DNA of 64,000 nucleotides, from the NCBI GenBank assembly GCA_950295325.1, contig OX485806.1, forward strand, positions 45,813,169-45,877,168, given 5' to 3'. The position numbers and the translations under genes are program-made. The notes beneath the pieces are model-generated. The model was not told the origin of the DNA, did not search any database, and worked only from the letters and a program-made list of their open reading frames with translations. Each line of letters opens with the position of its first letter. The stretch's first letter is position 1. The stretch is from Polytrichum commune. Its lineage: Eukaryota; Streptophyta; Polytrichopsida; Polytrichales; Polytrichaceae. Of this stretch, positions 15,320-60,007 are shown one piece after another.

Positions 15320-16843
15320 ATGAGGGCCATGGTGGTCGGAACAGGCGATGGAGATATGGCGATGGAGATGGTAAGTGTAGAGCAATCTGTCCAGGTTGAT
15401 ACCTTGTCATATTGCGTGTTGGAGGGTCTGATTGACTCCACTTTTCAAACGAGCGGAAAATTGCTAGACAGAGTGAAGCTTGGCGACTATGTCGAGCATA
15501 CTGACTTGGAGGAGGGCTGCGGGATTGATGGAGAGGTTTCGGAATGCCTGCGCTTTGTTGAGAATTCTGACTGCGGAGTTGTTGATTGCCAATATCTCAG
15601 CAAGTTTCCTGAGCAAGTCGAGTCAGAGGATGCAACTTTAGACGGGGAAAGAAGAGAGGGAGAAGACTTCCAAGTTTCCCATCTTGTAAGGCATGTTAAG
15701 ACGGAGAATCTAGAGAAGCTTGAGAGTTTGAAGGTTCCAGTGGAGAGTCTGAAGGTTCCTGTTGAGAATCTAGAAATTATCCGTGGGGCAGAGGTAGGGG
15801 AAGAGGAGGCTCTGCTGCTTGCCGAAGCGGCTAAAATCGGCGATGGAGGCGCTGTTTCGGACAGCGGTGACTGTTGCACTGGTGAGAAAAGGGACAGTCA
15901 AAAAATTAGTTGTCTCAAACCTAGCTGCAAGAATGGTGTATCTTCTCTGCCGGCGGGTAAGAAGAAGGCGAAGGTAGACTGGACACCGGAGCTCCATCGT
16001 CGTTTCGTGCATGCAGTGGAGTCGCTGGGTGTGGAAAAGGCATTTCCGTCCCGTATCCTGGAACTTATGGGAGTGCAGTGCCTCACGCGACACAATATTG
16101 CTAGTCACTTACAGAAGTACCGCTCTCATCGACGCCACCTTGCAGCTCGAGAGGCAGAGGCAGCATCCTGGAGCCATCGCCGACCTTTCGCTCAAGCCCC
16201 CTGGACTCGAAGCGCACGACGCGAAGGCCTCCCTTATCTGGTTCCGCTGCTCAGCCACGCAACGCCACATATTCAACCACGGCCCGCAATGGCCATCCCT
16301 GCGCTGCAGCAACCGCAATGTCTTCAATCACAAGTTCCCCTCAAAGTGTGGGGCTACCCCACTGTTGATCACTCCAGTGTACATATGTGGCAACAACCCA
16401 GTGTGTGTTCTCCATCTTTCTGGCAAGCTCCTGATGGCTCTTACTGGCAACATCCCGCTGCTAACTACGATGGTGGAAGGGCGCCTGGTGCGTGCTATCC
16501 TCATCCCATGCGAGTTCCCCTGGCTACTATGCCGGCCGGGTCACCCATGGTGGCGTCAGGCTTCCCTGACGAAAACTACTATTGCGACGAGGCACTCCCC
16601 GTGTCAATGTATCTTTGTAATACCGCCTATGATTGTGATTTAGGGAGGGCCGCAGGTGCTGCCGCTTGCAGCAAACCGACTGAGACCCATTTGTCAAAAG
16701 AAATTCTTGATGCTGCCATCAGTGAAGCGCTCGCGAACCCTTGGACTCCTCCGCCGTTAGGGCTGAAACCTCCGTCCATGGAGGGAGTTATTGCAGAGCT
16801 CCAACGGCAGGGAATCAATACCGTGCCGCCCTCTATATGTTAG
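15320..16843 (+). CDS. GLK: GOLDEN2-LIKE (GLK) transcription factor, single uninterrupted frame of 507 residues
   Basis: GLK proteins act in the nucleus to switch on chlorophyll-synthesis and light-harvesting genes during chloroplast development. The GARP (Myb-like) DNA-binding domain is at residues 218-274 ([12 protein letters not shown] through [20 protein letters not shown]). It is followed at once by the family signature AREAEAASW. The middle is Pro- and Trp-rich ([19 protein letters not shown]), as in known GLKs. The C-terminal GCT box spans about 457-507 ([20 protein letters not shown], then ELQRQGI). The N-terminus is acidic and has a short ESLKVPV tandem repeat near residue 135. ATG codons at 15320 and 15329 are both possible starts; the second has the better GCCATGG context. 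The frame has no stop or intron, which is unusual for this family. Confidence 0.93.
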
Positions 16844-21931: not shown

Positions 21932-23567
21932 TGTGAGCCCAAAATTGCGCCCACATGTCTTCTCAAGCGTAAAAATTACGAAAACCTTAGAGTTCGTGTT
22001 TGTTTGATTTGTCAAAAGCATACAAAAAAGAGTGATGTGTTAGAGTTTAGTTATAGTTGAATTAAGTGTTGAACTTGAGTTAGTAAAAGAGAAAAAAACC
22101 AAAAACAAGTAATTAGTTTAATTCAGTTTTAGGGACACCTAAGTTTGAGAAACTTAGACTAGGCTTGGGTGGCCGAGCTTAAAGTATTGTTTGTATTAGG
22201 CTTACACTACAATTGTGTAAGGGGGGGATCCCTCCTCAATTCAGATCAGACACTAAAAGTTCGGATCCAGGAGAGAGGCCCTGGATGCTCGAAGAGGGGA
22301 CCGACACTCTCTCTCTCGGGAAGATGGTGGCAGTAGCACCGAAGAGGCCTCCCTATCGGCTTCTGGACTAAATGGTTGCAGCCGAGGGCACCAGGGATTT
22401 TGGCATGGTGTAATGCGAGTGTTGAAGAAGGGAGACTGGGAGGCTAGAAGGCAGAACGCTAGATGACTACCTTTGCTTCTCGTTCAAGGTAAAATGCTTT
22501 GGGCCAGCGGCCGAGCAGGTGCATTTGGCGATGGCTTGAATCAAAAGGGATTCAGCAATGTGCACTGACCGAAGGACCAACAGTTAAGGTGGAGGGAGTA
22601 AGACTTCATAGGTTCAGTGAGGAGTGCCGAGCGAGGCAGCTGGTGGACCCAACGAGACCACTCGCTGGCCATCAAAGGTGTGCGGATGCGAGGGCTGCCA
22701 CGGTGCAGCGGGAGGTGCACTTCCGAGAATAGCTGAGACTATACAGGTGTTGTAACCAGCAGTTGCATTGGCTGCAAGCTCAACTGAAGGAGGAGAGGTT
22801 CAATCTGGTGGGCTCGGTGACTGGGAATTGGAGGGGAGATTGGGTCAGCGGCAGAAATCAAGGGGAGAGAGTGCTGGGAATGCGGTGGATTACTGATGAT
22901 TTCGTGATGAAAGCAAGGAGCGGTGAGGGTGCATTAGGTTGAGATTAGATCTTCTTCAATTTCCCTATTTCAACGAGTTCTTGAAGGTTGTCCGAACTGG
23001 GTTGCTGCCTTGAGGCAGGGGGCAGGAGGCATGATTTGAATGCTGGGTGGTTGCTTGTCAACTTGGAAAACACACAAGCCGCGGGTCGAAATGGCTCGGC
23101 AGTGGCGATCTTCTACCGGACTGGGATTTGAAGGAGGCCTTGAGGCGACTGGGCAGGCTATGGTTCTCTTGTCGAGCATAGTGTAAGGAGGGTGAAGGCC
23201 CTGGTGGCACATTAGTGGCCAGTGGAGATGTGAGCTGGCCGAAGGAAGGAAGGGGAATTAACGAGGTGGCAGGGAGGACTTACCCACAGTACTGGCAGCT
23301 GGGCAGGGGATAATAATCAATTTGTAGTGAAGGAATTAGTGACTTAGATTAGTGTTAGTATAGGGTTTAGATGAGTTGTGTTGAGCTACGAGTATTTGTT
23401 AATACTTGAAGACCAAACAATAAAAAAAAATTAAAAAATTAATGTGTTTTATTCAACTCTCACTGAGGGTTGGTTATGTATTTCCATAAGCTGAGAGGAA
23501 GGTTGTGAAAGAGGATCCTTCACCAGGACTAGGACGCAATTAAGGATGGGGGTGAATCTGGCTCACA
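21932..23567 (+). mobile_element. Solo LTR of 1636 bp with 5-bp target duplication
   Basis: The insert begins TGTGAGCC and ends GGCTCACA, an exact eight-base inverted terminus. The five bases AGTGA flank it on both sides (21927-21931 and 23568-23572). No gag or pol is present. It splits the minus-strand DUF7869-type pseudogene, whose sequence resumes on either side. The first bases (TGTGAGCCCAAAATTG) closely resemble the inverted right end of the element at 36467-41132, so the two may be relatives. Confidence 0.85.
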
Positions 23568-25060
23568 AGTGAGCCGCGCCCCACTTTGAATATACGGTTC
23601 TATAAGTGCCTTGAAGAAAGGCACCTCCTCGATCATATGGGGGATGATGGGAACGTTCTCCGAATTCATGTATGACTTCATTAATAGTGGGATTATTGGA
23701 AAATCCTTTCCTCGCAACTTCATGCTCCATTGCCCAAAAGATGCATTAATATCATCATGCAAGTGATCTACCAAAATAAAAGACACAAACACCTCCTTGA
23801 AAATGCCTTTTGCAACCAACAATGACCAATATGCAAAAAAAAATCTATTTTTATTGTCCTTGGCATAATTGTCCAATTCAACACGCATAGTGGGGGAAAG
23901 TTTCATGATACTCACAAGTTCACTAGGTGGCTCTGTCAACAAATGCAAGCATATATCTTTTCCATCCAATACCGCTTCATATAGAGGTATTGATTCGTGT
24001 TTTCAAATAACAGTCTTGAAAATAGGACATCGGTTTCTCCAAATCATGTAACAGCCTTGCAAATGACCTTATCGTATGGTTTGAATCCGCCGGATATAAA
24101 TCGAGAGCATAATGAGAAAACTTGATATCATCGTGTTCATGTGCAATCATTCCTGCTATGCCAAATCAAGGATTTAATATTCATCTATAAATAATTCATA
24201 TTGTGTACATCTATGTCCCCAAATACAACCCTACAAACACAAAGTTGTGTTCATATAATGCGATGAATTTTTTTTCCAAATTCACTTGTAACCAATACAT
24301 GTAGCTTAAAAAATCCATCCGTGGCTTTTATTCGATTTGCAAAGCATGGTGAGGTTGTTTTGGCATGGTCCATTTTTTCATGGATAACTGTAAAGACCTC
24401 TAAAGGCTTGGAGATGGACAAATCTCTATTTGTTACGGTATTCATTACGGTGCGCCTCTTGCATGTTCACATGCTTGAAATAGTTCAATTGATGTGTTGC
24501 ATAGGACTTTGTCCCCATCGTGTGTGCATCCCGAAGGTGCTTCAACTTCTTGATAAGGTTTGCTTTCTTGATTGCACTTAATTTTGACAAAAAAATTGGC
24601 TTCAAACCGGCCTTCTCGCCAACTGCATTTATATCCAACAATATGTCTTTCTATTTTATGCTTGTGGGAAGAACCTTCTCTACAACCTTTTCACCGGTTT
24701 TGAGTGTACGTGTTTTGTGTGGCATTGCATTGGCAAAGGGAACAATAATGGTCGCCAGAGTGGGAGTTGTTTGCCTTGTTGCTTCTTGAGGTTTCTTTAA
24801 ACCCACGTTCCATGGTGACAGGACCTGCAATCTTCCTTGGCATAAACAATTTTTCTATAAAAAAATTCTTTCCACACACCATGAATGATATACCATGCCG
24901 TACAATACACATCTATGCTTTCAAAGGTGATGACCTTGTGACCCATCCAGTTCACATGTATTGCCCTATAAATATCAAATAATGTTTTTTGATGGATCTT
25001 AAACAAAAATCTCCAAGCCACACTTCTTTGCAGATGACCTTTATTTTATCCCAGGGGAAT

Positions 25061-25492
25061 TGTCATGTGAGGTGACATCGGGGGTTAAGTCACGTCAAAT
25101 TAGGAGTAAATGGACTTTATTAGGAGTCCATGTGTGTTTGGATGGATTATGGACTCCATTGGGAGTCCTAGTTAGTTGTTCATTCACTTCATGGATGAAA
25201 TCCACATAGGATTGGGGTTATGTGGAGAGGAAGGCATCTTGACTTGCCATTGTTGTCAAGTCAAGTCTTGTGAGTGTGTTTTGAGAGAGAGAGAGCTTGT
25301 TGTTGCTATCTTATGGCTATGGTGTAGTAGATCATGAGTAAAGCCTTTGCATTCTTTCTCCATCACTTGCACTCTTGGATTCTCCCTTTGTGGAGTGAGA
25401 GATAGCTTGACTCTTGTGTGTGAATTTCAGATTTTCTTAAGCTTTGTAAGGAGACTTCTTAGTTTCTTGAGATTGGAGAGAGAAACCCTCAT
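25061..25492 (+). repeat. 5' LTR, portion shared with the 3' LTR
   Basis: These 432 bases align without visible gaps to 34637-35068 and to the start of copy 2 at 54269. The true LTR may run beyond 25492, but the 3' LTR is broken at that point, so the end cannot be set. It contains self-complementary blocks: ATGGACT..AGTCCAT pairs and CTTGACTTG with CAAGTCAAG. The first bases TGTCAC pair with GTGACA just downstream in the intact form; here one base is changed to TGTCAT. Confidence 0.85.
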
Positions 25493-25935
25493 ACTTGACA
25501 ACAATAGGCTTATTTTTCATTTTTGGTTGTATTTCTGAGCTAGAATGGCCCAGTAGTGGGAGCAAATGAGTGATACAAGTGTATGAAAGCTTAGTTTGCA
25601 ATTCCTTGCAACCCTCAAGAAGATTTTGAGAAAAATCTCCACATTTATCTTTTGGTGTCTCTTTGTGTTTTCTTGAATTGTTGATGGTTGAATCTTGAGA
25701 CCAAATGGAATCTCAAGTCACATCTTTCTTGCTTGCAAATTGTGGAAGCAAAGTTTAATTTTTTTCTTTAAAAACAAAAAAAATAAAAAAATCCGATTTG
25801 TTTTTAATTTTTTTGAGCTCTGGACGGATCCGGAGCTCACCGGACCCTCCTAGAGCTCCAGGAGCTCCAGGCAACAAACCGGGCGGGCGGGCGCAGGCCG
25901 GGCCCACGGGGGCGGGCAGGCGCCAGCCAAGCCAG

Positions 25936-26940
25936 GTAAGCCTTCCCCTACTTCTTTTATTTTTATTTTTATTTTTTATTGTTTTGTTTTCAATATAAAC
26001 ATTTATTTTTATTTTTATTTTTACATTTTTACTTTCACCTTTCAAACTTGGCATTTAATTCTCACAAACTTTGAGGTTCAAATTTGGGGGCATACTAGCT
26101 CCGATTGGAGTGAAATTTGAGCCTATCTTGTGTGAAATTTGCCAAGGAATCCAATGGTGTAATTGGATTGTTGATTGGAATTCAAAATCATTGCTGAAAT
26201 TATTAATTTCAACGCTGATTTTTATTTTTGGGAGCAAATTAACTCCGAACGGAGTGAAATTTGAGCCTATCTTGTGTGAAATTTGCCAAGGAATCCAATG
26301 GTGTAATTGGATTGTTGATTGGAATTCAAAATCATTGCTGAAATTATTAATTTCAACGCTGATTTTTATTTTTGGGAGCAAATTAACTCCGAACGGAGTG
26401 AAATTTGAGCCTATCTTGTGTGAAATTTGCCAAGGAATCCAATGGTGTAATTGGATTGTTGATTGGAATTCAAAATCATTGCTGAAATTATTAATTTCAA
26501 CGCTGATTTTTGTTTTTGGGAGCAAATTAACTCCGAACGGAGTGAAATTTGAGCCTATCTTGTGTGAAATTTGCCAAGGAATCCAATGGTGTAATTGGAT
26601 TGTTGATTGGAATTCAAAATCATTGCTGAAATTATTAATTTCAACGCTGATTTTTGTTTTTGGGAGCAAATTAACTCCGAACGGAGTGAAATTTGAGCCT
26701 AATTTGTGTGAAATCTTCCTAGGAGTCCATTGGTGCACTTAGTTTGTTGATTGGAGTCCATAATCACCTTGGAAATGAGCCCTTTCAACGCTGATTTTTC
26801 ATTTTAATTACCAATCTCAAACCTTTGCACAATTTTGGAATTCTGGGGGGCATAAATAAACACTTGGCATTTGGCAAGGGATTGCCATTTAGATAGCCCG
26901 CAACAGGTGCAGGTTGCCATTACCTTGTAGATAGTTGCAG
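25936..26940 (+). other. Possible leader intron of copy 1
   Basis: A GC-rich leader (about 25811-25935) ends at CCAG|GTAAG, a canonical donor. An acceptor, GTTGCAG, lies at 26940, 19 bases before the gag start codon. The same pair occurs in copy 2 (55146 and 55883). The 144-bp repeats would lie inside the intron. Splicing is inferred from the borders only. Confidence 0.4.
26095..26742. repeat. 144-bp tandem repeats in the leader, four full units plus a partial
   Basis: The phrase GTGAAATTTGAGCCTA recurs at 26110, 26254, 26398, 26542 and 26686, an exact 144-base spacing. Because 144 is a multiple of three, open frames run through the array on both strands (about 225 codons each), but neither shows a domain. 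Copy 2 has two full units plus a partial, so the number varies between copies. Confidence 0.95.
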
Positions 26941-26959
26941 GTACTCAAGTGATTATTTT

Positions 26960-29671
26960 ATGGTGCAAACTAGGAGCCGATATTATCGATCTCCATCACC
27001 AGATTACTTGGAGGACGTGCATACCACAAATCTTGAGCCAGAGGTAGATACCAACGAGGCTTTTGAGCCTATTTTGGCGTTGGACACTACTAGTAGGCTT
27101 CGGATTTGGAGTGTCGGCACGTTCGACGAAATGGAGGACGATCGCCACAATTCAGTGCGTGATCGGTTTTCAGGTCGAGCTGGGGGCATTTCCTTGCCCG
27201 ATTGGAAACTCCGGTTTCGTACCTGGATTAAGGAGAAATGCCAAAGGTCTTCCAATTTCAATGATTGGTATGCCTTTGAACTTCTGCCTCAACATTTGGA
27301 GTATGAGGCACTCCAAACTTATGAACGCTGGACAGAGGGTCATCAGCGACAACTTCGGGAGGTGGAGCAGTATTGGGAGGCCCGGGTTGAGCTTATTTCA
27401 GCCCTTAAAGATGGGGCGGTTGCCACCTTAGCTCCACCCACCTTAAAGGAGGAGGAACCATCAGAGGAGTCAAAAGACAAAGAACTAGCATTTGGGCCAA
27501 TAGTGGCTGGCAGTAGCACGGCTACCTTTTCACGGATGGCATGTGCTACATAGGCAGCATTGACGGCTGTTGGTCCACCACCTCCATTTAATCCCCTTAC
27601 TGAATTTGTCGCACACTTGGAGGTGGAGTATGGTGGATTTCGGCGAGATCAGATGCAGCGCATTCAAGATTTCCGCCGAGAGAAGGATGATACTTCACGG
27701 ACCATGTATACGCGACTCGCACGATTTGCTCTTGAGTCGGGAGGTGTTTTTGCTGAGAGTCAGCTTGTCAAAATCTTTTTGTCTAAGATTGACAAGCGGC
27801 TACTTGAGTTGGCATCACCTCGGATTATCCTCGACTACGAAGGCAGAGCTACGCTTGCACAAGCGTTTGCCGTGGTTGAGAGATGTGATCGGACTCTCTG
27901 TCAACACGATGCCACAGACATGGTATCCTGGATAACAGAGAATACGAAATCAAAGAGAATTGTCACAGCTACTAGTAGTTTAGCTGAGACTCAACCCGTT
28001 AAGGAGCAAAAGATTTTGCATTGTTGGGGTTGTGGAGAAGCTGGTCATTCGAAGAATGATCCCAATTGTCCTAAGAAGAAGAAAACTCAGCCTTTGGGAA
28101 AATTAAAACAAAAGATGGAACCAGTAAAGGCAGGGGACAATTATAAGAAGAGACAATTGAAATGTAATCATTGTGGTGGCACTAATCACGATGTGGATCA
28201 TTGTTTCCAACTTCATCCTGAGATGCGGCCTGCCAGTTATGTCACTGGAAAGTCTCCAAGGGAGCAGAGTCTTGAGGCTAAGGTGGCAGAGCTTGAGCAA
28301 AAGCTCAAATCTTCTGCATCTTTTGCTCAAATTTCTGAGCCGCATGCGGGTGGTGGCACCTCGGGTTCGGACATGTATATGTTTGGGGCATCTGGAGAGG
28401 TGGTGGCTGTGGCTTCTACTCGATCTCAAACATTGGCAGATGCGGTGGCTTCTACAAGTGGTGGTAGCAACGAGGTGTCACGTCCTCGCCATGCCGGACC
28501 AGCAGATCAAGTTGGTCAAGCACGTTTACCTCTCTCATTTGGATTGGTAGACACCACTGTTGTTGGGGCAAAAAACCCTGTACCTTTGAGAGATGGGGAT
28601 TCCATCTCGAAGGATGTTACGCAGGCATTGGCATATAAAATTCTCCATATGCCAATTTTCTCGGGTTCGGAGTTGATGGCTCCGGATTTCAAGCCTGCTG
28701 GAGTTTTCCATTTAGCTGGGAGAATGTTAGAAGGTAAGGTGGATTTGCCATCCCTTCAAGTATCCCAAGCTGTTGTTGACGTACCTGTGGCTGAGGAGGT
28801 GGAGGACTTAGCCAATTTGCGAGCGAGCCTTGCGGATGCGGCGATCATTGCTTTTGGTAAGCACACTGATATTCCACCATCAACAATTTCAGCAGTGGAC
28901 ACGTCATTTTCAAATTATGCAGCGGGAGCGACATATCTTGCAAATATTTCTGCAAGGCCTGCTCGCGAACGGCATAATTTGCAACCTGGAGTTGTACGGC
29001 TGATGAACGACAAATCTTTGTTTGTTGTTTCACACGCGGATATTCCTGCTATTCGTGCTACACCACTGAGAGTTATGATGGATTCCGGTGCTCAACCGGT
29101 TATGATTGGCAAAGGACTTGCTAACAGTCTTGGATTGACGCCAGCAAACTTAGATCCTTGTCCATTGACAATTGTGACTTCAGTAGGGGGCACTGAACGT
29201 GCAACAGGTTACACCAAGGCACCTCTATATTTGATTTTTAATGTGGGGGCAGGACCTACCTACACTCATTTGTCAATGAAGTGTGTTGTTACTAATGCTA
29301 CCAACTATGATATACTTGTTGGTTAGCAAGTTTTTTATCCACTTGGCTTTGGTTTGGATAATTGGACTGAAGAGGCATGGATTAGACCGGGATGGTCTTC
29401 TGGTGATGGCAGGAAGGTATTTATACCTGTAGCATTTGCAGCTACTTCTATGACTATGATTGCGGAGGAAATGTTTGGTTGTAGCGGTTCAGTTGCGGAT
29501 TTGCCTTGTGTTCCAGTTTTGTTGGAGGAAACATTGGACTACTCTTGTAATGTAGCAGAGCAACAAATTTTGCCATCTTTACAAATTCCTGCTCGACATT
29601 TCAAGGATCCACCTCCACCATGGCGTACTCCTAAGGAATTATCCAACCATTGTTGACACATTGTAGCGGAT
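26960..29671 (+). pseudogene. Gag and aspartic protease of copy 1, three premature stops
   Basis: The frame starts MVQTRSR at 26960, a usual gypsy Gag start. It contains a Gag core (EFVAHLEVEYGGF, then TRLARFALESGG), a zinc knuckle CWGCGEAGHSKNDPNC (C-x2-C-x4-H-x6-C), a second knuckle CNHCGGTNHDVDHC (C-x2-C-x4-H-x4-C), a short heptad-like helix (LEAKVAELEQKLK) and the protease motif MMDSGAQPV with its TNYDILVG flap-end motif. Stops at 27551 (TAG), 29324 (TAG) and 29654 (TGA) are all sense codons (CAG, CAG, CAA) in copy 2. So the break is specific to this copy. Confidence 0.9.
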
Positions 29672-31057
29672 TTGGGGCTTGGAGAGACACCTCCAATGTC
29701 ATCGTCATTTTCTTTTGCTCAACCCATTCGTTGGCAACCACCACCTGAAGGTATTGTCCTTATGGAAATCTTTGGGGGCATTGGCATAGGATTGGCGGCA
29801 GTGTTGGAGGCTGGGATTACAGTTTGGCGATATATTCATGTGGATAATGAATATGCAGCCAACAGAGCCGTCCGACATCACATCCAACAATTGTTGTTGA
29901 GGTACCCCACACAATTGTCAGCCTCTGCCATTCTTGGATGTTGTGGTCAACTTCCTCAAGATGTCACTATGATTAGTGATGAGGATTTGAGAAGATTGGG
30001 CTACGTGGATTTAATTATTGCAGGATGGCCTTGTCAAGGCCATTCACGGGCAGGAACTGGCCAGGGTTTGAATGATCCTAGGTCTAGTTTGTTCGCGGAT
30101 TTGATGCGATTGACACAATGGTGGTTTACCCACCAATCAATTCCGCCAAGGTACATTTTTGAAAATGTGTCATTACTGGGTGATACACGACACAAAGTGG
30201 TGAAGGATGGTGAGTACATTAACCAAATTTTGGGTACTTCAACATTCCTGGATGCTGCATCCATGGGATCCTTTGCGCATCGGCCTCGTTGGTTTTGGAC
30301 CAATTTGGTATCACCTCAGATGCTTTCAGCGGTGATCGTCCGCATTCCCCACCTTATGAATCGCAAGGTGGATGACATTTTAGATGATCATCGTATTTCC
30401 TTGGCAGTTATCAAGGATGTCACCTTGCCATTTGCATTAATTAACAAGGTGGAAATTCCGAGAGGTGCACTACCTACTTTTGTGACATATCCACGGTCTT
30501 TTGCATTTCGATCTCGTGGACCAGGCATGGTTTGGGATTCAAAATCCCAAACTCATGATGAGCCTACGGCAGATAAGCGAGAATGCGCTATGGGTTTTCC
30601 TACAGGCACCACGGCTGCTCATGGGCTTCAGGATGGTCAGAAATGTTTCCTATTGGGACAAGCTATGGATCTCAATAGCATTTTATGGATAATTGGAATT
30701 TGTCTTGCTGCTCAAAAACGTATGAATGACCAATTGTTTCCTCTGAGGGCAGAGAACAATGGTCAGGGGGCAATGGAGCCGCAATCCAAGGATCACATGG
30801 AGGTCAATGACACCGAGGGATTATTTCCTTTGAAACTTCATGTTGCGGAAAAGCTTCGAGCCCAACGTGTTTTTTCGGCTTTGGCCCAAGAGTTTGGGAA
30901 GTTGGAGGCCTATAAAATGTCTCCACTTCTATTTCTTGGTGACACTTCATATGTGGGTAGTTATTTAGCTACACAAACTGATTGTAGTGGAGAAGATACA
31001 CATTTGGATTCAAGTGCAGATGATGGAGGCAAAGGTGTTGCCCTCTCCACGGACTAG
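29672..31057 (+). CDS. C5-cytosine DNA methyltransferase domain of copy 1, complete and unbroken
   Basis: This is an S-adenosylmethionine-dependent enzyme that would add methyl groups to cytosine in DNA. With residues counted from 29672, motif I is MEIFGGIGIGLAAVLEAGI (31-49). Motif IV is IAGWPCQGHSRAG with catalytic Cys121 (codon 30032-30034). Motif VI is YIFENV (Glu164). Motif VIII is AHRPRWFWTNL (202-212). The C-terminal motifs are AMGFPTGTT (306-314) and FLLGQAMDLNSILWI (326-340). The order is the normal I-to-X, not permuted as in plant DRM enzymes. The HRPRWFW block resembles DNMT3-type enzymes, but the recognition region is short and the subfamily is uncertain. A 120-residue tail follows with no known domain. 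The upstream protease frame is the same reading frame beyond the stop at 29654. It ends at UAG 31055-31057. Confidence 0.9.
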   Translation: MGLGETPPMSSSFSFAQPIRWQPPPEGIVLMEIFGGIGIGLAAVLEAGITVWRYIHVDNEYAANRAVRHHIQQLLLRYPTQLSASAILGCCGQLPQDVTMISDEDLRRLGYVDLIIAGWPCQGHSRAGTGQGLNDPRSSLFADLMRLTQWWFTHQSIPPRYIFENVSLLGDTRHKVVKDGEYINQILGTSTFLDAASMGSFAHRPRWFWTNLVSPQMLSAVIVRIPHLMNRKVDDILDDHRISLAVIKDVTLPFALINKVEIPRGALPTFVTYPRSFAFRSRGPGMVWDSKSQTHDEPTADKRECAMGFPTGTTAAHGLQDGQKCFLLGQAMDLNSILWIIGICLAAQKRMNDQLFPLRAENNGQGAMEPQSKDHMEVNDTEGLFPLKLHVAEKLRAQRVFSALAQEFGKLEAYKMSPLLFLGDTSYVGSYLATQTDCSGEDTHLDSSADDGGKGVALSTD

Positions 31058-31063
31058 CAATCA
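31055..31063 (+). promoter_or_regulatory. Putative stop-readthrough site UAG-CAA-UCA, copy 1
   Basis: The stop that ends the methyltransferase frame is followed by CAA TCA, matching the UAG-CAR-YYA context known to allow readthrough in tobamoviruses. The reverse transcriptase frame continues in the same phase. Copy 2 has the same nine bases. It could instead be an inherited CAG-to-TAG mutation. Confidence 0.45.
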
Positions 31064-33913
31064 CAGGCTGTGCTGGCACCAAGTGGCAATCCTTCTATGA
31101 AGAAAGAAACCACGGAGTTTGACGATTGGCCAATTGAAGTGGGGCCAAAACTTACTGGTGCCGAAGCACGAAAGGTACGGGCATTTATTCGCTCTTACCG
31201 TAATTATTTTGCCTTTAGTCTTCATAATCTTGAAGGATATAAAGGTAAACCTGTTCGTATTCAACTCGAGGACGACCATCGTATTTTCAGACGGCCGTAC
31301 AGACTTAGTACATCTGAAAGGTTGGATGTTCAAACTCGATGTCAAGAATTATTGGTAGCGGAATTGATTGAACTCTCCAATGGAGAGTATGCTTGTGCCA
31401 CGGTTATGCCTTCAAAGAAAGATATCTTTGGCAACTGGACGGAAAAACGGATGTGTGGTGATTATCGTCCAGTCAACCGCAAGACCACGTCGGATCGATA
31501 TCCAATGCCGATGCCAGAGGAGTTGTTTGATGCACTGGGATTTTCTAGAATCTTCAGCACTCTGGATTTGAGGTCTGGTTATCATCAATTACCTTTGTTG
31601 TTGGGTGATCGGGTGAAGACCGCATTTTGGGAAATTGATAAAGATGGCAATGATCAACTTTATCATTGGAAATTTCTGCCATTTGGTCTCAATAATGCAC
31701 CAGCTGAATTTCAGCGGGTGATGTACCAATTATTGGCTGGTTTGCTGTTTGCTAGATGTTACATTGATGATGTTATCATCTTTAGTAATAGTCCACAGGA
31801 TCATGTGAGACATTTGCAAGCGGTATTTGAACGACTTCAACGGTGGGGACTCCGTTTACATCATGGAAAATGTAAGTTTTTCCATGATCAATTGCCCTAT
31901 TTAGGCCACATGATTGTTCATGGCGCTTTTGGTGTGCAACATGCGAAGGTGGATGCTTTGCACAAAATTCTTGCACCTAGTGATGTACCACGACTTCGGG
32001 CATTTCTAGGATTGGCAAATTATTATAGGAGGTTTGTCAAAAACTTTAGTTTGATTGCTAAACCTCTCACCATTCTTACGGGGAAAGACCAACCATGGAT
32101 TTGGAGTCGGGAACAACAACAAGCAATTGATACATTGAAGCAGAGGCTCGGTTCAACGCCAGTGCTTCGACGCCCGGATGTGTCTAGAGCTTTTCAATTG
32201 CACACGGATTGGAGTGCAGTGGGATTGGGAGCGGTATTAACACAGAAAGATGTAGAGGGAAAGGAATATGTGGTGGCTTATGCATCTAGAAGCAATAATA
32301 GTGCTGAATCTAATTATTCTTCTTATGAAGGCGAGGCCTTGGCGGCCGTTTGGGCCATTGCACATTTTCGACCTTATTTGTATGGGCAAAAATTTACTTT
32401 GGTGACTGATCATCAGTCTTTAAAATGGCTTATGGAATCAGATAAGCTCACCGGAAAATTTGCTAGATGGGTATTGTTACTTCAAGAATATGACTTTGAA
32501 ATTGTTCACCGAGCAGGAATTGCCAACTTGGATGCAGACGGATTGTCTTACAATCCAAGCCCTTCAAATGAGGATATAACTGGAGCCAGGTGGCATGGAG
32601 ATTGTGATCGTGAGGCAGTACTGGGTTGGCATGCTGCCACATATCTCACAATGATGTCGGGATTGGCTGCTGAGATCCTTGTGGAACAACAAGATGAGGA
32701 GATTGATAAATCTCTCGTTGTTAGTGATGTGTGGGAAGACCAGGCGGTCTTGCACAAACTTCAACAAGGGATATTTCCTCTCGGACTATCTGCTATGGAG
32801 CGAGATAGAGGTAGTCATCGAATAACAAGGTTTCGTTGGGCAAACGGCTTGTTATTTCGTGTGTGGCCAAACGGAACGAGGTGCATCGTTCCAAGGCCAG
32901 ATCAAAGAGCTTCTTTAGTGCGGAAATTGCACGAGGAGCTTGGACATTTTGGAGTGCGAAGGACACACTCTATGTTGCGCAACCAATATTGGTGGACTGG
33001 TATGTATCAACAGGTTGCTACTTATGTTTCCCGGTGTGAAGTATGTGACCGGGTCAGATCAAGTTTTAATACTTTATCACCTCAACTTCAGCCTTTACCT
33101 ATTATGAGCTTGGGATATCGTTGGTCTTTGGATTTTGCCGGACCGCTTACTATCACTCCACGTGGGGCAAAGTATGTACTTGTGATGGTGGAGCATTTTA
33201 GTAAGTGGATTGAACTCGTGGCTCTTCCCCAAAATTCCTAAGAATTGGCAGCTATGGCATTTCTTGATCGAGTTTTCGCACGGTTTGGAGCACCTGTAGA
33301 GGTGTTGACGGATCAAGGGAGAGAATTTCTGGGATCTTTCGAGGCTTTGTGTACCAAGGCTTTGATTGATCATCAAACAACCTCCAAAGATCACCCTGAG
33401 GCAAATGGCTTAGCTGAACGAGTTGTTCAGACTGTCAAGCGCGGTTTGCGGAAGTATGGATTGCTTCATGGCAACCATCGTGATTGGGACTTGATGTTAC
33501 CATGGATAGCAATGGGTTACCGTTTCAGCAGGCAAACAGCTTTGGCATCCTATAGTCCTTACCAACTTTTGTATGGATGGGAACCAATTTTATCTAGCTC
33601 TGTGCGAGAGAAATTGGCTCCCGTAGTAAACTTGGATGATCCAGATGTTTGGGCTCAATGTCTTCATGACCGAGCAACGTTCTTCCAAAAGGCCATGCCT
33701 ATGGCTATGGAGAACTTAAATATAGCTCAACATCGTGATACATTACGGTATGGCCGGATCCGCAGTGGAGCTTATCGACCTCAGGTTCGTAGATTTTCCC
33801 AAGGGGGATTATGTTTACTTGCAACGGAAGGCGCCTACGACATTGGATGTCAAGGCTGGGCGTATAATTGTGCGGGTAAAAGATGTGTTACCAAGTGGTA
33901 TATTATTGCTTGA
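31058..33913 (+). pseudogene. Reverse transcriptase, RNase H and integrase of copy 1
   Basis: The frame runs from 31058 to a TAA at 33239, then on to 33913. Reverse transcriptase shows MCGDYRPVNRKT, LPFGLNNAPAEFQ and the catalytic YIDD at 31760-31771. RNase H shows HTDWSAVGLGAVL, YEGEALAAVWAI and VTDHQSLKWL. Integrase shows the zinc-binding LHEELGHFG..H and CEVC, then a core with DFAGPL, VLTDQGREF and EANGLAERV. The TAA at 33239-33241 falls inside the integrase core, between its first and second acidic residues, and is also in copy 2. A one-base gain near 33800 (CCCAAGGGGG against CCAAAGGGG in copy 2) shifts the integrase C-terminus out of frame. The tail resumes in the frame 33735-34052. Confidence 0.9.
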
Positions 33914-34025
33914 AGGCAAGGATGGACGGGATTGTTGTGAGCATTCAAAGAATTGTGCTCCATGTCACCTTTCCATCGACAGCTCTGTGCATCCCGAGTT
34001 GACGGTTGTACCACAGGGTCTGCCT

Positions 34026-34201
34026 TGTTATGTGTGTAGAGAGAAGAAATGAGCTGCAACAATGTTATTGTGCGACCATTATCAACGTGGATGGCACATG
34101 GCATGTTTGACACCTCTCCTTTGGACTCTTCCTTTGGCAATTGGGTTTGTCCTCGTTGTCGGAAAGCCTCTCACTCCATGGCCGTTAATGGTCATGATTG
34201 A
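34026..34201 (+). pseudogene. Decayed PHD finger after the integrase of copy 1
   Basis: PHD fingers are Cys4-His-Cys3 zinc folds that often read histone H3 tails. CYVC (34026-34037) gives the first Cys pair. After a TGA at 34050, MLLCD, RGWHMACLTP and, in a shifted frame, NWVCPRC (ending 34159) complete the pattern. One expected zinc-binding Cys is Tyr (CDHY), and two extra bases near 34110 shift the frame, so this copy cannot fold as drawn. The reading then ends at TGA 34199-34201. Copy 2 lacks this region. The upstream segment VLPSGILLLEGKDGR links it to the integrase. Confidence 0.7.
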
Positions 34202-34526
34202 GGACTTTGTGGATGTTTGCCACATGTCTTAGTGGTGAAGTTGTTATCTAGTTGGTCGGAAGTTTTATGGGATTGAAAATCACATTGGGAGAGTTATCAA
34301 AGAATTCAACATAAATTGTTGAAGGCGATTAAGGATGGGGCTCACATTGCACCTAGCCTACAGTTCTTAGGTTACTTCCTCAACCATGAGTTTAATTCCT
34401 TAGATTACCACTACCCAATATGGATATATACAGATGTAGCAACAACTTCATCATGTTCAACACCTCTACCGATGAGTGTGTTTGTTCCTAGCTGATTGGA
34501 GGGGCTCCTTATCTGCTAGGGGGGCA

Positions 34527-35177
34527 CTTGAAGAGGTGGTTGTTTAGCATATTACTTTGCTATGTTTATTTTTCTAATTGATGTTGATGACGACACTCGA
34601 TCTGTTGTGTTTAACGATCTTAGTTTACACGACAGTTGTCACGTGAGGTGACATCGGGGGCTAAGTCACGTCAAATTAGGAGTAAATGGACTCCATTAGG
34701 AGTCCATGTGTGTTTGGATGGATTATGGACTCCATTGGGAGTCCTAGTTAGTTGTTCATCCACTCCATGGATGAAATTCACATAGGATTGGGGTTATGTG
34801 GAGAGGAAGGCATCTTGACTTGCCATTGTTGTCAAGTCAAGTCTTGTGAGTGTGTTTTGAGATAGAGAGAGCTTGTTGTTGTTATCTTATGGCTATGGTG
34901 TAGTAGATCATGAGTAAAGCCTTTGCATTCTTTCTCCATCACTTGCACTCTTGGATTCTCCCTTTTTGGAGTGAGAGATAGCTTGACTCTTGTGTGTGAA
35001 TTTCAGAGTTTCTTAAGCTTTGTAAGGAGACTTCTTAGTTTCTTGAGATTGGAGAGAGAAACCCTCATCTTGAAGAGGTGGTTGTTTAGCATATTAGTTT
35101 GCTATGTTTATTTTGCTAATTGATGTTGATGACGACACTCGATCTGTTGTGTTTAACGATCTTAATTTACACGACAG
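34527..35177. repeat. 109-bp direct repeat flanking the 3' LTR segment
   Basis: A block starting CTTGAAGAGGTGG and ending TACACGACAG occurs at 34527-34635 and again at 35069-35177, differing at only a few bases. The LTR segment 34637-35068 lies between them. The second block ends just where the first is followed by the LTR start, and then genomic flank begins. The junction at 35068 sits at a short ACTTGA-like microhomology. Confidence 0.85.
34637..35068 (+). repeat. 3' LTR segment of copy 1
   Basis: These 432 bases match the 5' LTR from TGTCACGTGAGG to AACCCTCAT. A CACGTG G-box lies at 34640-34645 and is also in copy 2; it is mutated in the 5' LTR of copy 1. Paired blocks that can form hairpins are at about 34687-34708 and 34727-34745. 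The sequence that follows in both 5' LTRs is absent. Confidence 0.85.
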
Positions 35178-35731
35178 AACAATTGGCAACAATGATGCAT
35201 ACAATTTTTTTTTTTGGCAACTTCTCTAATGGATTTTTCACTTAGCAACCTTTGAAGTTTACACTTGTTTGCAAACGGAGTAGCACGTGCCAATGTCTCC
35301 TAATTACGTGGCCAGATGTTTGTTTGGAGCTTCTTTTGGATTTGCATGTGTTGTCACTCATGTTCACGCAAGCTAACTCCTTCAATCGTGACATTCTTCA
35401 AGGACCACCTACGGAGGGGGATCCTCAAAATGAATGAGTGACTTTCATATGACAACTCCAACGTCTTCGGTGTCAAATGGATTTTCATCAATGCAATTTT
35501 GTGGATGTGTGTTACAACAAATACCCTCCACCACAACAACTCCACTATCATTAACAAGTATCACCTCCAAATTCACCTACAAAGCTATTGAAAGCCCCGT
35601 AGATCCAACAATGGGGTAAAACTGTATGGAAGGCGAAGAACCCCCAAATGATCTTCCTGTACATGGTCATCAATAGTAGCCTCCGTGTTTATATCTAGTT
35701 CATCCTCAGATGCAGATACCCAAGTGACCAT

Positions 35732-36949: not shown

Positions 36950-38507
36950 CTCGGAATGTCCTAAAATTTTATCTGTAACTAGGGAGACAAAACAAAAAAA
37001 CATCTCACCAATTTGTGAGCCTATCCCATTTTCTGTCCGACAGTTATGACCATTTTAGTATGTCAGTCTACCCAGATTTCAGAATGTCATCACTTCCTCT
37101 CACAGGCTCCAAAGAACTTCAAATTTTGGGAGCAATCACAAAAAACTAATTGCTTGTGACCCCCTAAAATTTCAAACTATTTTCATTTTCTGCCAAAACG
37201 TTATGGCCTTTTTAGTCTGCAACTCTTGAAAACACTTCAGAATGATATATCTCCTTCTCATCTACTCGGAATGACTTGAAATTTGTACCACAACTAGGAA
37301 ACCTTAGAACAAAGCATCCCTCAAAATTTCATGCGTTTCCAAGCCTCTGTCCAGGAGTTATGCCCATTTCAGCTCAAAAATGTAGGCAAAGTTCAGAATG
37401 TCATAACTTCCTCTCACAGGCTCCAAAGAACTTCAAATTTTGGGAGCAATCACAAAAAACTAATTGCTTGTGACCCCCTAAAATTTCAAACTATTTTCAT
37501 TTTCTGCCAAAACGTTATGGCCTTTTTAGTCTGCAACTCTTGAAAACACTTCAGAATGATATATCTCCTTCTCATCTACTCGGAATGACTTGAAATTGTA
37601 CCACAACTAGGAAACCTTAGAACAAAGCATCCCTCAAAATTTCATGCGTTTCCAAGCCTCTGTCCAGGAGTTATGCCCATTTCAGCTCAAAAATGTAGGC
37701 AAAGTTCAGAATGTCATAACTTCCTCTCACAGGCTCCAAAGAACTTCAAATTTTTGGAGCAATCACAAAAACTAATTGTTTATGACCCCCTGAAATTTCA
37801 AACTATTTTCATTTTCTGCCAAAACGTTATGGCGTTTTTAATCTGCAACTCTTGAAAACACTTCAGAATGATATATCTCCTTCTCATCTACTCGGAATGA
37901 TTTGAAATTTGTACCACAACTAGGAAACCTTAGAACAAAGCATCCCTCAAAATTTCATGCGTTTCCAAGCCTCTGTCCAGGAGTTATGCCCATTTCAGCT
38001 CAAAAATGTAGGCAAAGTTCAGAATGTCATAACTTCCTCTCACAGGCTCCAAAGAACTTCAAATTTTTGGAGCAATCACAAAAACTAATTGTTTATGACC
38101 CCCTGAAATTTCAAACTATTTTCATTTTCTGCCAAAACGTTATGGCGTTTTTAATCTGCAACTCTTGAAAACACTTCAGAATGATATATCTCCTTCTCAT
38201 CTACTCGGAATGACTTGAAATTGTACCACAACTAGGAAACCTAAGAACAAAGCATCCCTCAAAATTTCATGCATTTCCAAGCCTCTGTCCAGGAGTTATG
38301 CCCATTTCAGGTCGAAAATGTAGGCAAAGTTCAGAATCTCATAACTGCTGCTTTAGTACTCCAAACATCCTCAGATTTTGACCATGTTCATATAAACAAG
38401 TTGTTTACGAACCCTCTAAATTTCAACGAAGTATCTTCTTCTGCTCGGAAGTTATGCCCCTTACAACCTAGACTACTCAAGAAATACCCAAGAAATATGA
38501 ACTCAAG
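36950..38507. repeat. 313-bp tandem repeats, about five units
   Basis: The phrase CTTCCTCTCACAGGCTCC recurs at 37093, 37407, 37720 and 38033, a spacing of 313-314 bases. The inner units are almost identical. The first (from about 36950) and last (from about 38200) are diverged. Small open frames repeat with the units but show no domain. The array lies wholly inside the LTR-type element. Confidence 0.93.
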
Positions 38508-38509
38508 TA

Positions 38510-40559
38510 CAGTCTAACCTTGATAATGTCACCCTTGTTAATGGGACACCTTGATACTGTCACCTAAAAGTTTGAAACCGATTTTCTTAGTGTAAAACTC
38601 CCTCGTTATTATCCCTATCACCCTTGTTAATGTCACTATTTTTTTCCAAAATCCGTAGTGTAAATGTGATAATATCAAATATGGATGGATTGTATGTGAT
38701 GGTTGGATGGACATATTGTAGTAGCCAAAAGGGTCATGAGCCACCCCTGTGATAAATGCAATGTTATTCAAAGGGTCATGAGCCGCCTCTGTGCACCAAC
38801 CCTGAACGGTGCTGTCTATACACGACACTCAAAGGTGCTGTCTATACACGACACTCAAAGGTGTTGTCTTTGACGGCGCTGCCAAGACTTCTTGGCCTCT
38901 ATGCACCCCACCTTCCGTCACATGTGTTCACCTATGTGTCTTTGAGGGTTTCAGCTTGTGTGAAGTAATTTAGGATGTTAAGTTCTACGGTTTAGCTAAG
39001 CTGGTACAGAGTAGTGTCGACTTAAGCTAAATTAGTTCAATTGGTTTGCAATGTAGAAATCTCAAGATATGTGGCACGGTCTTCACTGTTTCTATAGTCA
39101 ATAGTCGCATAGGAGAATCTAGTAAGATCCTGAAGACATCTTCAATTTTGATGAGACAGGTTTGTATTATAAAGCCTCTCCTTGCAAGACTTTGAATATT
39201 GGGAAGGCAAAAGGAAATAAAAAGAAGAAGGACCGTGTGACATTGGGGCTTTGCACTAATATCTCAGGGAAGGAGCGATTGAAGCTTTTTTTCATTCACA
39301 AATCAACACGTCCCAGATGCTTTCCTCGGAAGTTTGATCCAAATAGTATAGTACACTATTATTCTAACAATTCAGCCTGGATGAATGGTGATGCTTTTAC
39401 ACATTGGGTGAAGAGTGAGAACCAAAGAATGGCATTGCAAGATAGAAAAATTTGCATTATTATGGATAATGCAGGAAGCCATGATATTCATGGTGAGGTC
39501 AAAAAAGTTATAGATGGATTTAATGCTTTTGTACTCTCCCATATCACTATATTGTTTCTTCCACCAAATGTGACTTCAGTTGTTCAGCCTTTGGATCAAT
39601 GAGTGATTGCAGCATTCAAAATGTGCTATAAACGCAAGCTTGTTGCCTGGACTTTGCAACAAATTGATAACTCAAATGAAGATTTGGGGAAACTGAATGT
39701 TGATCTATTTCAAGCAATGCTATGGTGTGTGGCGGCATGGCATGAATTAGATGATCAAACCATTAGAAATTGTTGGAGAAAGTCTGCCATATTGCCTGCA
39801 GCGTGGAATGCAGATATCAACAATTCTGATGAACGTATGAAGTCCAAAATGGAGGAAGCAGCTTTGGAATTGGGCAATCTCATCGCCGCATTGAATTTGG
39901 GTTTGGATGTTGAAGGCAAGCCTATAGAAAAGCTTAGTCCTTTAGAGTACATAAACATGGAAGGTGAAGATGATTTTGAGGTGGAATATTCTACTGAGGA
40001 ACTTGTGCAATTAGTGCAAGATGGCGAACATGTACTTGATTCCATGGAAGAAGACCCATTGATTGTTGATAGCAATGATGATGAGTCTAAAGTAGTGAAG
40101 CTAAGCGATGCACAAAAATATGCTAAAGATGTTTTGAATTTTATGGCTAGCCAAGGTTCTCAGATTTTCAACACTCATGAGTTGTTAGGAATGGAAAACA
40201 TCCATGACAAACTCATTAGAATTGGTGTTGGACATTTAACATCACTAAAACAATGTGACATTAGAAGCTTCTTTGTCTCTAGTGAGAGGTCTTTACCTGA
40301 TCTCAATGACACATTGTGATGTGCTCATGTTGTTATTCACAATTTTGAATTATATTTTACATTCAAAAACATTGAAGTCTTGTGTTTGTTTTTTTTTTTT
40401 TTTACATTGTAGTTTCATTTTGATTTTCTACCTTTTTTTTTTTGATAATATCACATTATGCACAAATCTTCAAAATGTGACATTATCAAATATGTCACAC
40501 CTTGTTTATATCACACTTTATGGTGAAACGGATGGTGTGATATTATCAAGGTTAGACTG
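38510..40559 (+). mobile_element. pogo/Tigger DNA transposon, 2050 bp, both ends present
   Basis: The left end CAGTCTAACCTTGATAATGT is matched in inverse at the right end (ATTATCAAGGTTAGACTG). TA flanks both ends (38508-38509 and 40560-40561), as expected for Tc1/mariner relatives. Further GTGACATTATCAA-type blocks occur inside both ends. It carries a damaged transposase and sits at the edge of the 313-bp repeats inside the LTR-type element, so it arrived after that element. Confidence 0.9.
39138..40319 (+). pseudogene. pogo/Tigger transposase, one stop and no DNA-binding N-terminus
   Basis: The DDE nuclease part is recognisable: IFNFDETGLYYKAS at 39138 holds the first Asp, IIMDNAGSHD the second and FLPPNVTSVVQPLDQ the third. 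A TGA at 39600 then stands where the family normally has Gly (QPLDQG). The same frame continues to the stop at 40317-40319, with WRKSAILP and an acidic C-terminal part. The helix-turn-helix (CENP-B-like) N-terminus expected before the DDE part is not found in the 630 bases upstream, so it was probably deleted. Apart from the stop, the frame is open for almost 400 codons. Confidence 0.88.
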
Positions 40560-54268: not shown

Positions 54269-54702
54269 TGTCACGTGAGGTGACATCGGGGGCTAAGTTA
54301 TGTCAATTTAGGAGTAAATGGACTCCATTAGGAGTCCATGTGTGTTGGGATGAGTAACGGACTCCATTGGGAGTCCTAGTTAGTTGTTCATCCACTCCAT
54401 GGATGAACTCCACATAGGATTAGGGTTGTATGGAGAGGAAGGCCTCTTGACTTGCCATTGTTGTCAAGTCAAGTCTTGTGAGTGTGTTTTGAGAGAGAGA
54501 GAGAGCTTGTTGTTGTTTTCTCATGGCTATGGTGTAGTAGATTATGAGTAAAGCCTTTGCATTCTTTCTCCACCACTTGCACTCTTGGATTCTCCCTTCG
54601 TGGAGTGAGAGATAGCTTGACTCTTGTGTGTGAATTTCAGAGTTTCTTAAGCTTTGTAAGAAGACATTTTAGTTTCTTAAGCTTGGAGAGAGAAACCCTC
54701 AT
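54269..54702 (+). repeat. 5' LTR of copy 2, portion comparable with copy 1
   Basis: Matches 25061-25492 and 34637-35068 from TGTCACGTGAGG to AACCCTCAT, with a few changes. The CACGTG G-box is at 54272-54277. As in copy 1, related sequence continues past this point (ACTTGACAAC), so the real LTR may be longer. Confidence 0.85.
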
Positions 54703-55145
54703 ACTTGACAACAATGGCTCTAATTTTTCATTTTTGGTTGTATTTCTGAGCTAGAATGGCCTAGTAATGAGAGTAAATGAATGATACAAGTGTTTGAAAG
54801 CTTAGTTGGTCATTTCTTGCAACCCTCAAGAAAATTTTGAGAGAAATCTTCCCATTTTTCTTTTGTTGTCTCTTGTATTTTCTTCAATTGTTGATGGTTG
54901 AATCTTGAGATTCCATTTAGTTTCAAGATTCTCAAGTCACATTTTCTTGCTTGCAAATTGTGAAGCAAAGTTTAATTTAAATACAAACATAAACCACAAT
55001 CAAAATCCGATTTATTTTTAATTTTGGTTGAGCTCCGGACCCTCTTGGAGCTCCTGGAGCTCCAATTCTGAATCCCGGGGGCGGGCGGCGCAGGCCGGGC
55101 CGGGCCCCACGGGCGGGCAGGCGCCAGCCAAGCCCTGGCAGGCAG

Positions 55146-55883
55146 GTAAGATACCCTTACCCTTTTTTTAAATTTTTTAAATTTTTAGTTTTTAGTTTTA
55201 GTTTTAGTTTTTTTTAATTAAAACAAATATTTTTTTATTTTTTATTTTTTTTCACATTTTTACTTTCATCTTTCAAACTTGGCATCCAATTCTCACAAAC
55301 TTTGAGGTTCAAATTTGGGGGCATTCTAGCTCCGATTGAAGTGAAATTTGAGCCTATCTTGTGTGAAATTTGCCAAGGAATCCAATGGTGTAATTGGATT
55401 GTTGATTGGAATTCAAAATCATTGCTGAAATTATTAATTTCAACGCTGATTTTTATTTTTGGGAGCAAATTAACTCCGAACGGAGTGAAATTTGAGCCTA
55501 TCTTGTGTGAAATTTGCCAAGGAATCCAATGGTGTAATTGGATTGTTGATTGGAATTCAAAATCATTGCTGAAATTATTAATTTCAACGCTGATTTTTGT
55601 TTTTGGGAGCAAATTAACTCCGAACGGAGTGAAATTTGAGCCTAATTTGTGTGAAATCTTCCTAGGAGTCCATTGGTGCACTTAGTTTGTTGATTGGAGT
55701 CCATAATCACCTTGGAAATGAGCCCTTTCAACGCTGATTTTTCATTTTAATTACCAATCTCAAACCTTTGCACAATTTTGGAATTCTGGGGGGCATAAAT
55801 AAACACTTGGCATTTGGCAAGGGATTGCCATTTAGATAGCCCGCAACAGGTGCAGGTTGCCATTACCTTGTAGATAGTTGCAG
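55146..55883 (+). other. Possible leader intron of copy 2
   Basis: The donor GCAG|GTAAG at 55146 and the acceptor GTTGCAG at 55883 are in the same relative places as in copy 1, although the sequences just after the donor have diverged. The gag start codon is 19 bases downstream of the acceptor. Confidence 0.4.
55320..55690. repeat. 144-bp tandem repeats in the leader of copy 2, two units plus a partial
   Basis: TGAAATTTGAGCCTA recurs at 55342, 55486 and 55630. The units match those of copy 1, which has two more. Confidence 0.95.
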
Positions 55884-55902
55884 GTACTCAAGTGATTATT
55901 TT

Positions 55903-60001: not shown

Positions 60002-60007
60002 CAATCA
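59999..60007 (+). promoter_or_regulatory. Putative stop-readthrough site UAG-CAA-UCA, copy 2
   Basis: Identical in sequence and phase to 31055-31063 in copy 1. The pol frame follows in the same phase. Confidence 0.45.

Follow-up and report, generated by a model that had tools for sequence, protein, structure and literature searches.

A DNMT3-type cytosine methyltransferase encoded next to Gag in a Ty3/gypsy retrotransposon of a land plant

The element and its methylase domain

We analyzed a stretch of 64,000 nucleotides, referred to here as the window, and found within it a retroelement at 25061-35176 that is composed of a repeat A (431 bp), a coding region, a repeat B (108 bp), and then A and B again, all parts lying on the plus strand. 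Repeat A1 (25061-25491), recognized from direct repeats and flanks, starts with TGTC and forms the 5' end; an untranslated leader with tandem repeats of 144 bp (26083-26805) and the part of ORF1 for Gag, a zinc knuckle and an aspartic protease (26960-29326) follow, the protease match itself (29060-29200; PF13650, E=5.8e-4) being under the curated cut-off. The C-terminal part of ORF1 (29672-31057) encodes the DNMT3-type C5 cytosine methyltransferase, and its stop codon TAG, followed by CAA TCA (31055-31063), is in frame with ORF2. ORF2 (31070-33241) comprises reverse transcriptase (RT), RNase H and the zinc-binding part of the integrase, the integrase core continues at 33245-33913 (PF00665, under the curated cut-off), and a decayed PHD finger, placed by a match from another copy and thus with approximate limits (34020-34165), lies at the integrase C terminus. 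A purine-rich tract (34517-34526), likely the plus-strand primer site, adjoins repeat B1 (34527-34634), which is followed by repeat A2 (34637-35067), with 11 mismatches to A1 in 431 bases, and by repeat B2 (35069-35176), whose terminal GACA closes the element. The left target-site duplication (25057-25060) is one base off the right one (35177-35180).

With in-frame stops ending at 27553 and 29326 in the ORF1 part, at 29656, and at 33241, where ORF2 is closed, and with a frame change near 33805 in the integrase core, the window copy is dead. A second copy of the same family (54269-62891, plus strand) is 95.5% identical to 26371-33945 and has a shifted methylase frame; its 3' repeats were sought up to 600 bases beyond the window and not found.

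The 461-codon open frame at 29672-31057 was verified in the window sequence, its start being merely the first TTG past an in-frame stop. Its product matched the Pfam profile DNA_methylase with an E value of 1.6e-11, which exceeds the curated cut-off, and a search of solved structures (PDB) with this single sequence placed DNMT3A at the top (E=1.7e-6). With a profile of 39 sequences, DNMT3A and DNMT3B came first (5.6e-21 for DNMT3A), followed by DRM (1.2e-11), HaeIII (2.1e-7) and DNMT2 (2.8e-6). Along the frame, we found motifs I (FGGIGIG), IV (GWPCQ), VI (ENV), VIII (AHRPRWFW), IX (GFPTGTT) and X (LLGQAMDL), with the catalytic cysteine codon at 30032-30034; the numbering is our own assignment of C5 methyltransferase motif definitions, and we take the order to be the usual, unrearranged one. 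A preliminary description of this DNA had reported motifs I, IV, VI and VIII and C-terminal motifs in that order and had proposed a C5 methyltransferase inside a Ty3/gypsy element. The motifs were indeed present in the frame, and the significant Pfam match, the DNMT3A profile match and a Ty3-like RT bore the proposal out. We consider it confirmed that 29672-31057 encodes a DNMT3-type C5 cytosine methyltransferase, with methylating activity as a prediction from its sequence.

The predicted model of the domain had a mean pLDDT of 74.5, with most of residues 20 to 350 above 80, and the well-modeled fold covers approximately residues 20 to 355 (about 29729-30736). In a fold search, the model resembled DNMT3A and DNMT3B, with TM-scores (by target length) of 0.74 to 0.80 for chains consisting only of the catalytic domain; the 50 fold matches listed were DNMT3 entries, and matches to viral proteins were somewhat weaker (best E 4.9e-14 versus 2.5e-15). 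Between the core and the stop lies a tail of about 100 residues (about 30740-31054) that is weakly conserved (31 to 43% between the two families described below) and poorly modeled.

It seems to us quite improbable that the domain has lost DNA methylation and has become a component of the particle that binds nucleic acids or methylates RNA. Motif X usually has an asparagine where the window methylase reads GQAMD, a departure that we count against our preferred explanation, and the location adjoining Gag and protease would also suit such a role. Against it, the PCQ, ENV and HRxR motifs were mostly kept across 26 aligned methylase sequences, a few rows being broken, and profile and fold fit DNMT3, not the RNA-methylating DNMT2. 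A comparable domain from Klebsormidium gave no methylation in yeast, which would favor the loss of activity, although the authors call that test inconclusive in the text consulted (PMC5890265).

Reading frames, repeats and class of the element

In three other copies that we read, the coding region consists of two frames in the same phase with one stop between them. Frame 1 (1365 codons) encodes Gag, protease and methylase, while frame 2 (about 1047 codons) encodes RT, RNase H, integrase and a PHD finger (PF00628, E=2e-10 in one copy read). The preliminary description had placed a complete methylase between protease and RT. The order holds, since MMDSGA of the protease precedes the window methylase and CYIDD of the RT follows it, but the copy is dead, and the two-frame structure assigns the domain to the Gag-protease product. 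In these frames, the methylase terminates the Gag-protease frame and not Pol, which it would join by read-through of the UAG, and the integrase terminates in the PHD finger.

The junction between ORF1 and ORF2 had TAG in all 24 distinct junctions matched, followed by CAA TCA in 23 and by CAA TTA in 1. In a second family of the same genome (family B, the window element belonging to family A), TAG CA(A/G) TTA was present in all 10 junctions obtained from 11 loci, the eleventh locus being out of frame there. We take UAG-CARYYA at this place to be the tobamovirus-type leaky context, and the UAG in this putatively leaky context is thus kept in two families. The best solved matches of the PHD finger were CHD4, PHF12, KAT6A, ubi-d4 and PHF21A, and it also resembles those of UHRF1 and AIRE; several proteins of this set (CHD4, KAT6A, ubi-d4, PHF21A, UHRF1 and AIRE) read unmodified H3.

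We examined 15 copies of the window's family for their ends. Ten displayed the layout A-coding-B-A-B (one with A2 in two pieces and one with A partly duplicated), two displayed A-coding-B, and in three, one or both ends were missing from the stretch fetched. Among the 12 copies with both ends, the 4-bp target duplication was exact in 10 and matched at three of four bases in 2, namely, the window copy and one other. Of three family-B copies, one showed the full layout and another a repeated B, while the third stretch was without repeats. Immediately 5' of B1 we found a purine-rich tract in the window copy, in five of six further family-A loci and in one family-B locus; a tRNA primer site was sought downstream of A1, and none could be assigned.

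The RT of another copy had Ty3 as its best solved match (E=5.3e-38), and the Pfam domains are ordered PR-RT-RNaseH-INT with a DDE integrase. Tyrosine recombinase was absent, Integrase_H2C2 and rve being present instead. A full LTR was not found at both ends: the 5' end carries A, and the 3' end carries B-A-B. On its domains and ends, we regard it as confirmed that the element is a Ty3/gypsy element, one predicted to act like an LTR element despite its split repeats. In seven other copies, mostly picked for open frames, A1 and A2 differ at 0 to 2 sites, indicating that the family transposed recently.

The element may integrate after a circle has been opened within the repeat. Ordinary reverse transcription with the purine tract before B1 would yield B-A repeats at both ends; a two-LTR circle opened at the B|A joint would then give A-coding-B-A-B, and an opened one-LTR circle would give A-coding-B. 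The two forms seen are exactly those expected of circle opening, though the A-coding-B copies may also have arisen when B1 and B2 recombined after insertion, without a circle.

Copies, selection and C-to-T changes

We then determined how widely the methylase occurs in the genome. A search with the methylase protein scored 92 of 597 candidate places, at 85 to 100% identity, of which 42 were uninterrupted by a stop within the match (hand count). A search with the Pfam profile scored 123 of 352 candidates; 30 loci cut from it comprised 19 of the window's family (about 84 to 89%) and 11 of the second family (50 to 60%). Methylase-bearing copies number about a hundred or more in the genome. A methylase sequence or remnant lay just upstream of all 44 RT copies scored, the best 44 of 3949 candidates; adjacency was established for 37 by listed coordinates and for 7 by upstream DNA, 3 of these 7 retaining merely 68 to 195 residues. 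As these 44 places are the best matches, they do not survey gypsy elements as a whole and are silent on methylase-free relatives. The domain is accordingly present in other copies of its family, 3 of them as short remnants, contrary to the absence that the preliminary description had named as refuting it.

Selection was assessed on 33 distinct methylase copies without a frame break, of which 26 belonged to family A and 23 with at least 440 codons were tested; split or short matches and variants occurring exactly twice were dropped. Among these 23 family-A copies, variants in at least three copies comprised 20 synonymous and 15 nonsynonymous changes (pN/pS 0.23), versus 53 and 148 for singletons (pN/pS 0.86; Fisher p=5.8e-4). 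When one family-A copy was compared with two family-B copies, the methylase had a dN/dS of about 0.12; Gag and protease, with one defined value each, lay at about 0.10, and RT, RNase H and integrase at 0.02 to 0.05. Throughout, dS was close to saturation, and some values were undefined. Pooled over nine copies, pN/pS was higher for the methylase (0.45) than for Gag, protease, RT and integrase (0.24 to 0.33), which we count against our preferred explanation; only the short PHD finger exceeded it (0.62, 7 copies). The pattern of codon changes shows the predicted methylase to be under purifying selection in replicating lineages. Between families A and B, identity was 89% for RT and 63 to 65% for the methylase; we considered whether the two families had recombined between ORF1 and ORF2 to explain this difference and found this needless, synonymous divergence being near saturation in both.

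These data bear on the possibility that the methylase is chance baggage, a host gene captured by one copy and without a role. The death of the window copy would suit that idea, but purifying selection, the adjacency of the methylase to all 44 scored RT copies (the best of the 3949 candidates), its presence in two diverged families, and relatives across bryophytes and algae make it scarcely credible.

Changes found in one or two copies were dominated by C-to-T/G-to-A, at 0.013 to 0.015 per site and copy and equally in CG, CHG and CHH contexts, versus 0.003 for transitions at A/T sites, a four- to fivefold difference. This spectrum resembles a methylation footprint, which silencing by the host would explain as well as self-methylation. 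The methylase could thus serve self-restraint, tagging new copies for silencing so that the host suffers less damage and persistent lineages are favored, an idea similar to one raised by de Mendoza et al. in the text consulted (PMC5890265). The predominance of C-to-T in all contexts, as in densely methylated copies, would be in line with it. Since host methylation leaves the same footprint, however, and selection works on transposing lineages, for which self-silencing is a cost, we consider self-restraint unlikely.

Relatives, host and proposed mechanism

Three protein searches, the first two of which scored the best 8000 candidates, gave 56, 32 and 107 overlapping hits. Hosts named among the matches were Calypogeia fissa (1), Sphagnum (4), Marchantia polymorpha (13), Haematococcus lacustris (3), Monoraphidium neglectum (1) and Closterium (2), and the closest named relatives of the window element are from bryophytes. 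Neither vascular plants nor Klebsormidium were named among these hits, which for vascular plants is weak evidence of absence. Two proteins with bacterial bin names (P0002 and P0161) were assumed to be contamination, and no relatives were confirmed in viral contigs or prokaryote genome contigs by a search sensitive to close relatives only. Among the long proteins with these domains, 128 in number and two of them translated in this analysis, 66 had the order RT-RNaseH-methylase-integrase-PHD.

For RT and methylase trees, we sampled 38 elements: 25 of the 71 whose methylase follows RNase H and the full set of 13 in which it precedes RT, among them both window families; rows with short domains had been removed beforehand. 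Each tree split by methylase position (SH-aLRT 99 and 96), and their agreement points to co-inheritance of RT and methylase. In a methylase tree of 48 selected rows, in which long branches and odd composition were warned of for four unnamed rows, the position split had 100/100 support, and the named bryophytes formed, with one unnamed row, a single lineage (99/98) adjoining that of both window families (97/93); the two were sisters with 98/93 and 97/93 support. Because the trees are unrooted and without methylase-free outgroups, they fit both a single acquisition followed by a move and two gains of related enzymes. The Sphagnum rows P0038 and P0048 fell among liverworts at modest distance with moderate support (89/89 and 84/69), possibly by old paralogy or horizontal transfer.

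Related proteins from Marchantia, Calypogeia and Sphagnum (e.g., P0074, P0025 and P0048), deposited as hypothetical or unnamed, belong to the same methylase clade, in the lineage sister to the window's. In bryophyte models such as P0074, the protease motif precedes the methylase, and P0079 and P0086 run on into RT. Algal polyproteins from Haematococcus, Monoraphidium and many unnamed contigs share gypsy RT, RNase H, integrase, a PHD finger and a related methylase with the window element but have the methylase between RNase H and integrase, whereas it precedes RT in the window. The preliminary description had presented the element as an embryophyte system; the land-plant host stands, but, judging from the green algal proteins, the methylase-bearing lineage extends beyond embryophytes. 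In Closterium sp. NIES-53, P0183 had a methylase match in a gypsy-like model and P0184 a methylase beside a Copia RT domain (PF07727). Copia elements may likewise have acquired a methylase, as P0184 suggests.

The assembly comprises 408 Mb, of which about 406 Mb lie in seven contigs of 42 to 78 Mb. A search for Copia RT (150 of 1204 candidates scored) gave scattered matches and one dense cluster per large contig, at 33.41-33.47 (C1), 47.27-47.33 (C2), 33.16-33.20 (C3), 35.45-35.52 (C4), 46.55-46.61 (C5), 25.46-25.49 (C6) and 13.58-13.68 Mb (C7). These clusters are probably centromeres marked by one Copia group; Physcomitrium centromeres reportedly carry Copia clusters likewise, and the host is likely a moss with n=7. 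Within the window, a 507-codon frame at 15320-16843 (+) carries a GARP-like Myb domain (PF00249) and, judging from its motif, is presumably GOLDEN2-LIKE (GLK)-like. The bryophyte affinity of the closest named relatives, this presumed GLK-like gene and the seven contigs, each with a Copia cluster, uphold the land-plant host named in the preliminary description. Other features of the window are a Harbinger-like DDE_Tnp_4 transposase (PF13359, E=9.8e-31) at 2469-3623 (+) and 3633-4139 (-), beside a weak Myb/SANT-like match; a frame matching DUF7869 (PF25273, E=3.4e-23) at 23529-23969 (-); a unit of about 313 bp in four tandem copies at 36983-38426; and a DDE_1 transposase in two frames split by a stop at 39162-40319 (+).

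Retrotransposon methylases of Klebsormidium and dinoflagellates, mentioned in the preliminary description, are both described by de Mendoza et al. (2018; PMC5890265). According to its text, KnitGypsy-Dnmt3 of Klebsormidium nitens is, like the window element, an LTR element of the gypsy type in which a Dnmt3-type domain lies unrearranged, with conserved key residues, repeats arranged in DIRS fashion and purifying selection, and it is termed there an independent acquisition in the Klebsormidium lineage. Its domain, however, is placed in the Pol ORF of an element hosted by a charophyte, whereas the window domain, in a land plant, ends the Gag-protease ORF before a putatively leaky UAG, read-through of which would connect it to Pol; the words PHD, Gag, moss and Marchantia do not occur in the main text of that article. 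SymbioDIRS-Dnmt3 of Symbiodinium likewise combines a Dnmt3-type enzyme with A-coding-B-A-B repeats and has two forms differing in domain order (PMC5890265, text consulted), but it is a DIRS element with a tyrosine recombinase, while the integrase of the window element is of the DDE type and its target duplications are 4 bp long. Physcomitrium DNMT3a/b, which share the DNMT3-type catalytic domain, are described in the available text of PMC6453930 as host genes with DUF3444, whereas the window domain is unrearranged and fused to Gag-protease; DRM, in contrast, has rearranged motifs. For streptophytes and dinoflagellates, DNMT3 is also mentioned in elements of the LTR Copia and DIRS types (PMC12344493, text consulted). 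No report of a methylase-bearing retrotransposon in a bryophyte was found among the open-access listings that we searched, two of them giving the best 15 of 32 and 20 of 36 papers. The element is thus of a known kind, that of Klebsormidium gypsy with Dnmt3; new are the land-plant host, the hundred or so copies or more, the Gag-side position, and the relatives in Marchantia, Calypogeia, Sphagnum and green algae.

The explanation that we favor, and hold to be probable, is that of an old green-lineage Ty3/gypsy group with a DNMT3-type enzyme that would be packaged through its link to Gag and would methylate cDNA de novo. Translation would mostly halt at the UAG, so that the methylase is made and packaged in Gag-like amounts, while the rarer read-through product would provide RT and integrase. 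The Gag-side position before the leaky stop suggests packaging, and the new cDNA is the nearest DNA in the particle. There, or soon after uncoating, the methylase would mark the element's new cDNA de novo, and the new copy would reach the genome already methylated; the PHD-bearing integrase would direct it into chromatin with a suitable H3 tail.

The enzyme might instead act in trans, methylating host chromatin or competing elements and thereby altering the sites and level of the element's expression. In its favor, de novo methylation of chromatin is a known activity of DNMT3-type enzymes, the genome has about a hundred or more copies, and the predicted PHD finger would tie the element to histone tails. 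Encoding with Gag in ORF1 fits packaging, however, and such an effect would be a weak selective source for the element itself, which leaves action in trans on the unlikely side, if conceivable. Returning to the packaged enzyme acting on cDNA, we propose, more tentatively, a history in which methylase-bearing gypsy elements had a single origin deep in green plants and were inherited or passed through chlorophytes, charophytes and bryophytes. The methylase would have moved once within the polyprotein, and in bryophytes it would be Gag-linked, particle-packaged and ahead of a leaky stop, with DDE integration from circles opened inside the repeat.

Such transposons have been stated to be absent from land plants, with tracheophytes named (PMC6338049, text consulted). 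With about a hundred or more copies in a bryophyte and relatives in Marchantia, that statement fails for land plants as a whole. The window element connects algal methylase-bearing retrotransposons to land plants, and its Gag-side methylase before a conserved, putatively leaky stop leads to a specific prediction, namely, an enzyme carried inside the particle with cDNA as its substrate. Why a retroelement would keep the type of enzyme used for its silencing has now become a question for plants that can be transformed and whose methylomes can be profiled.
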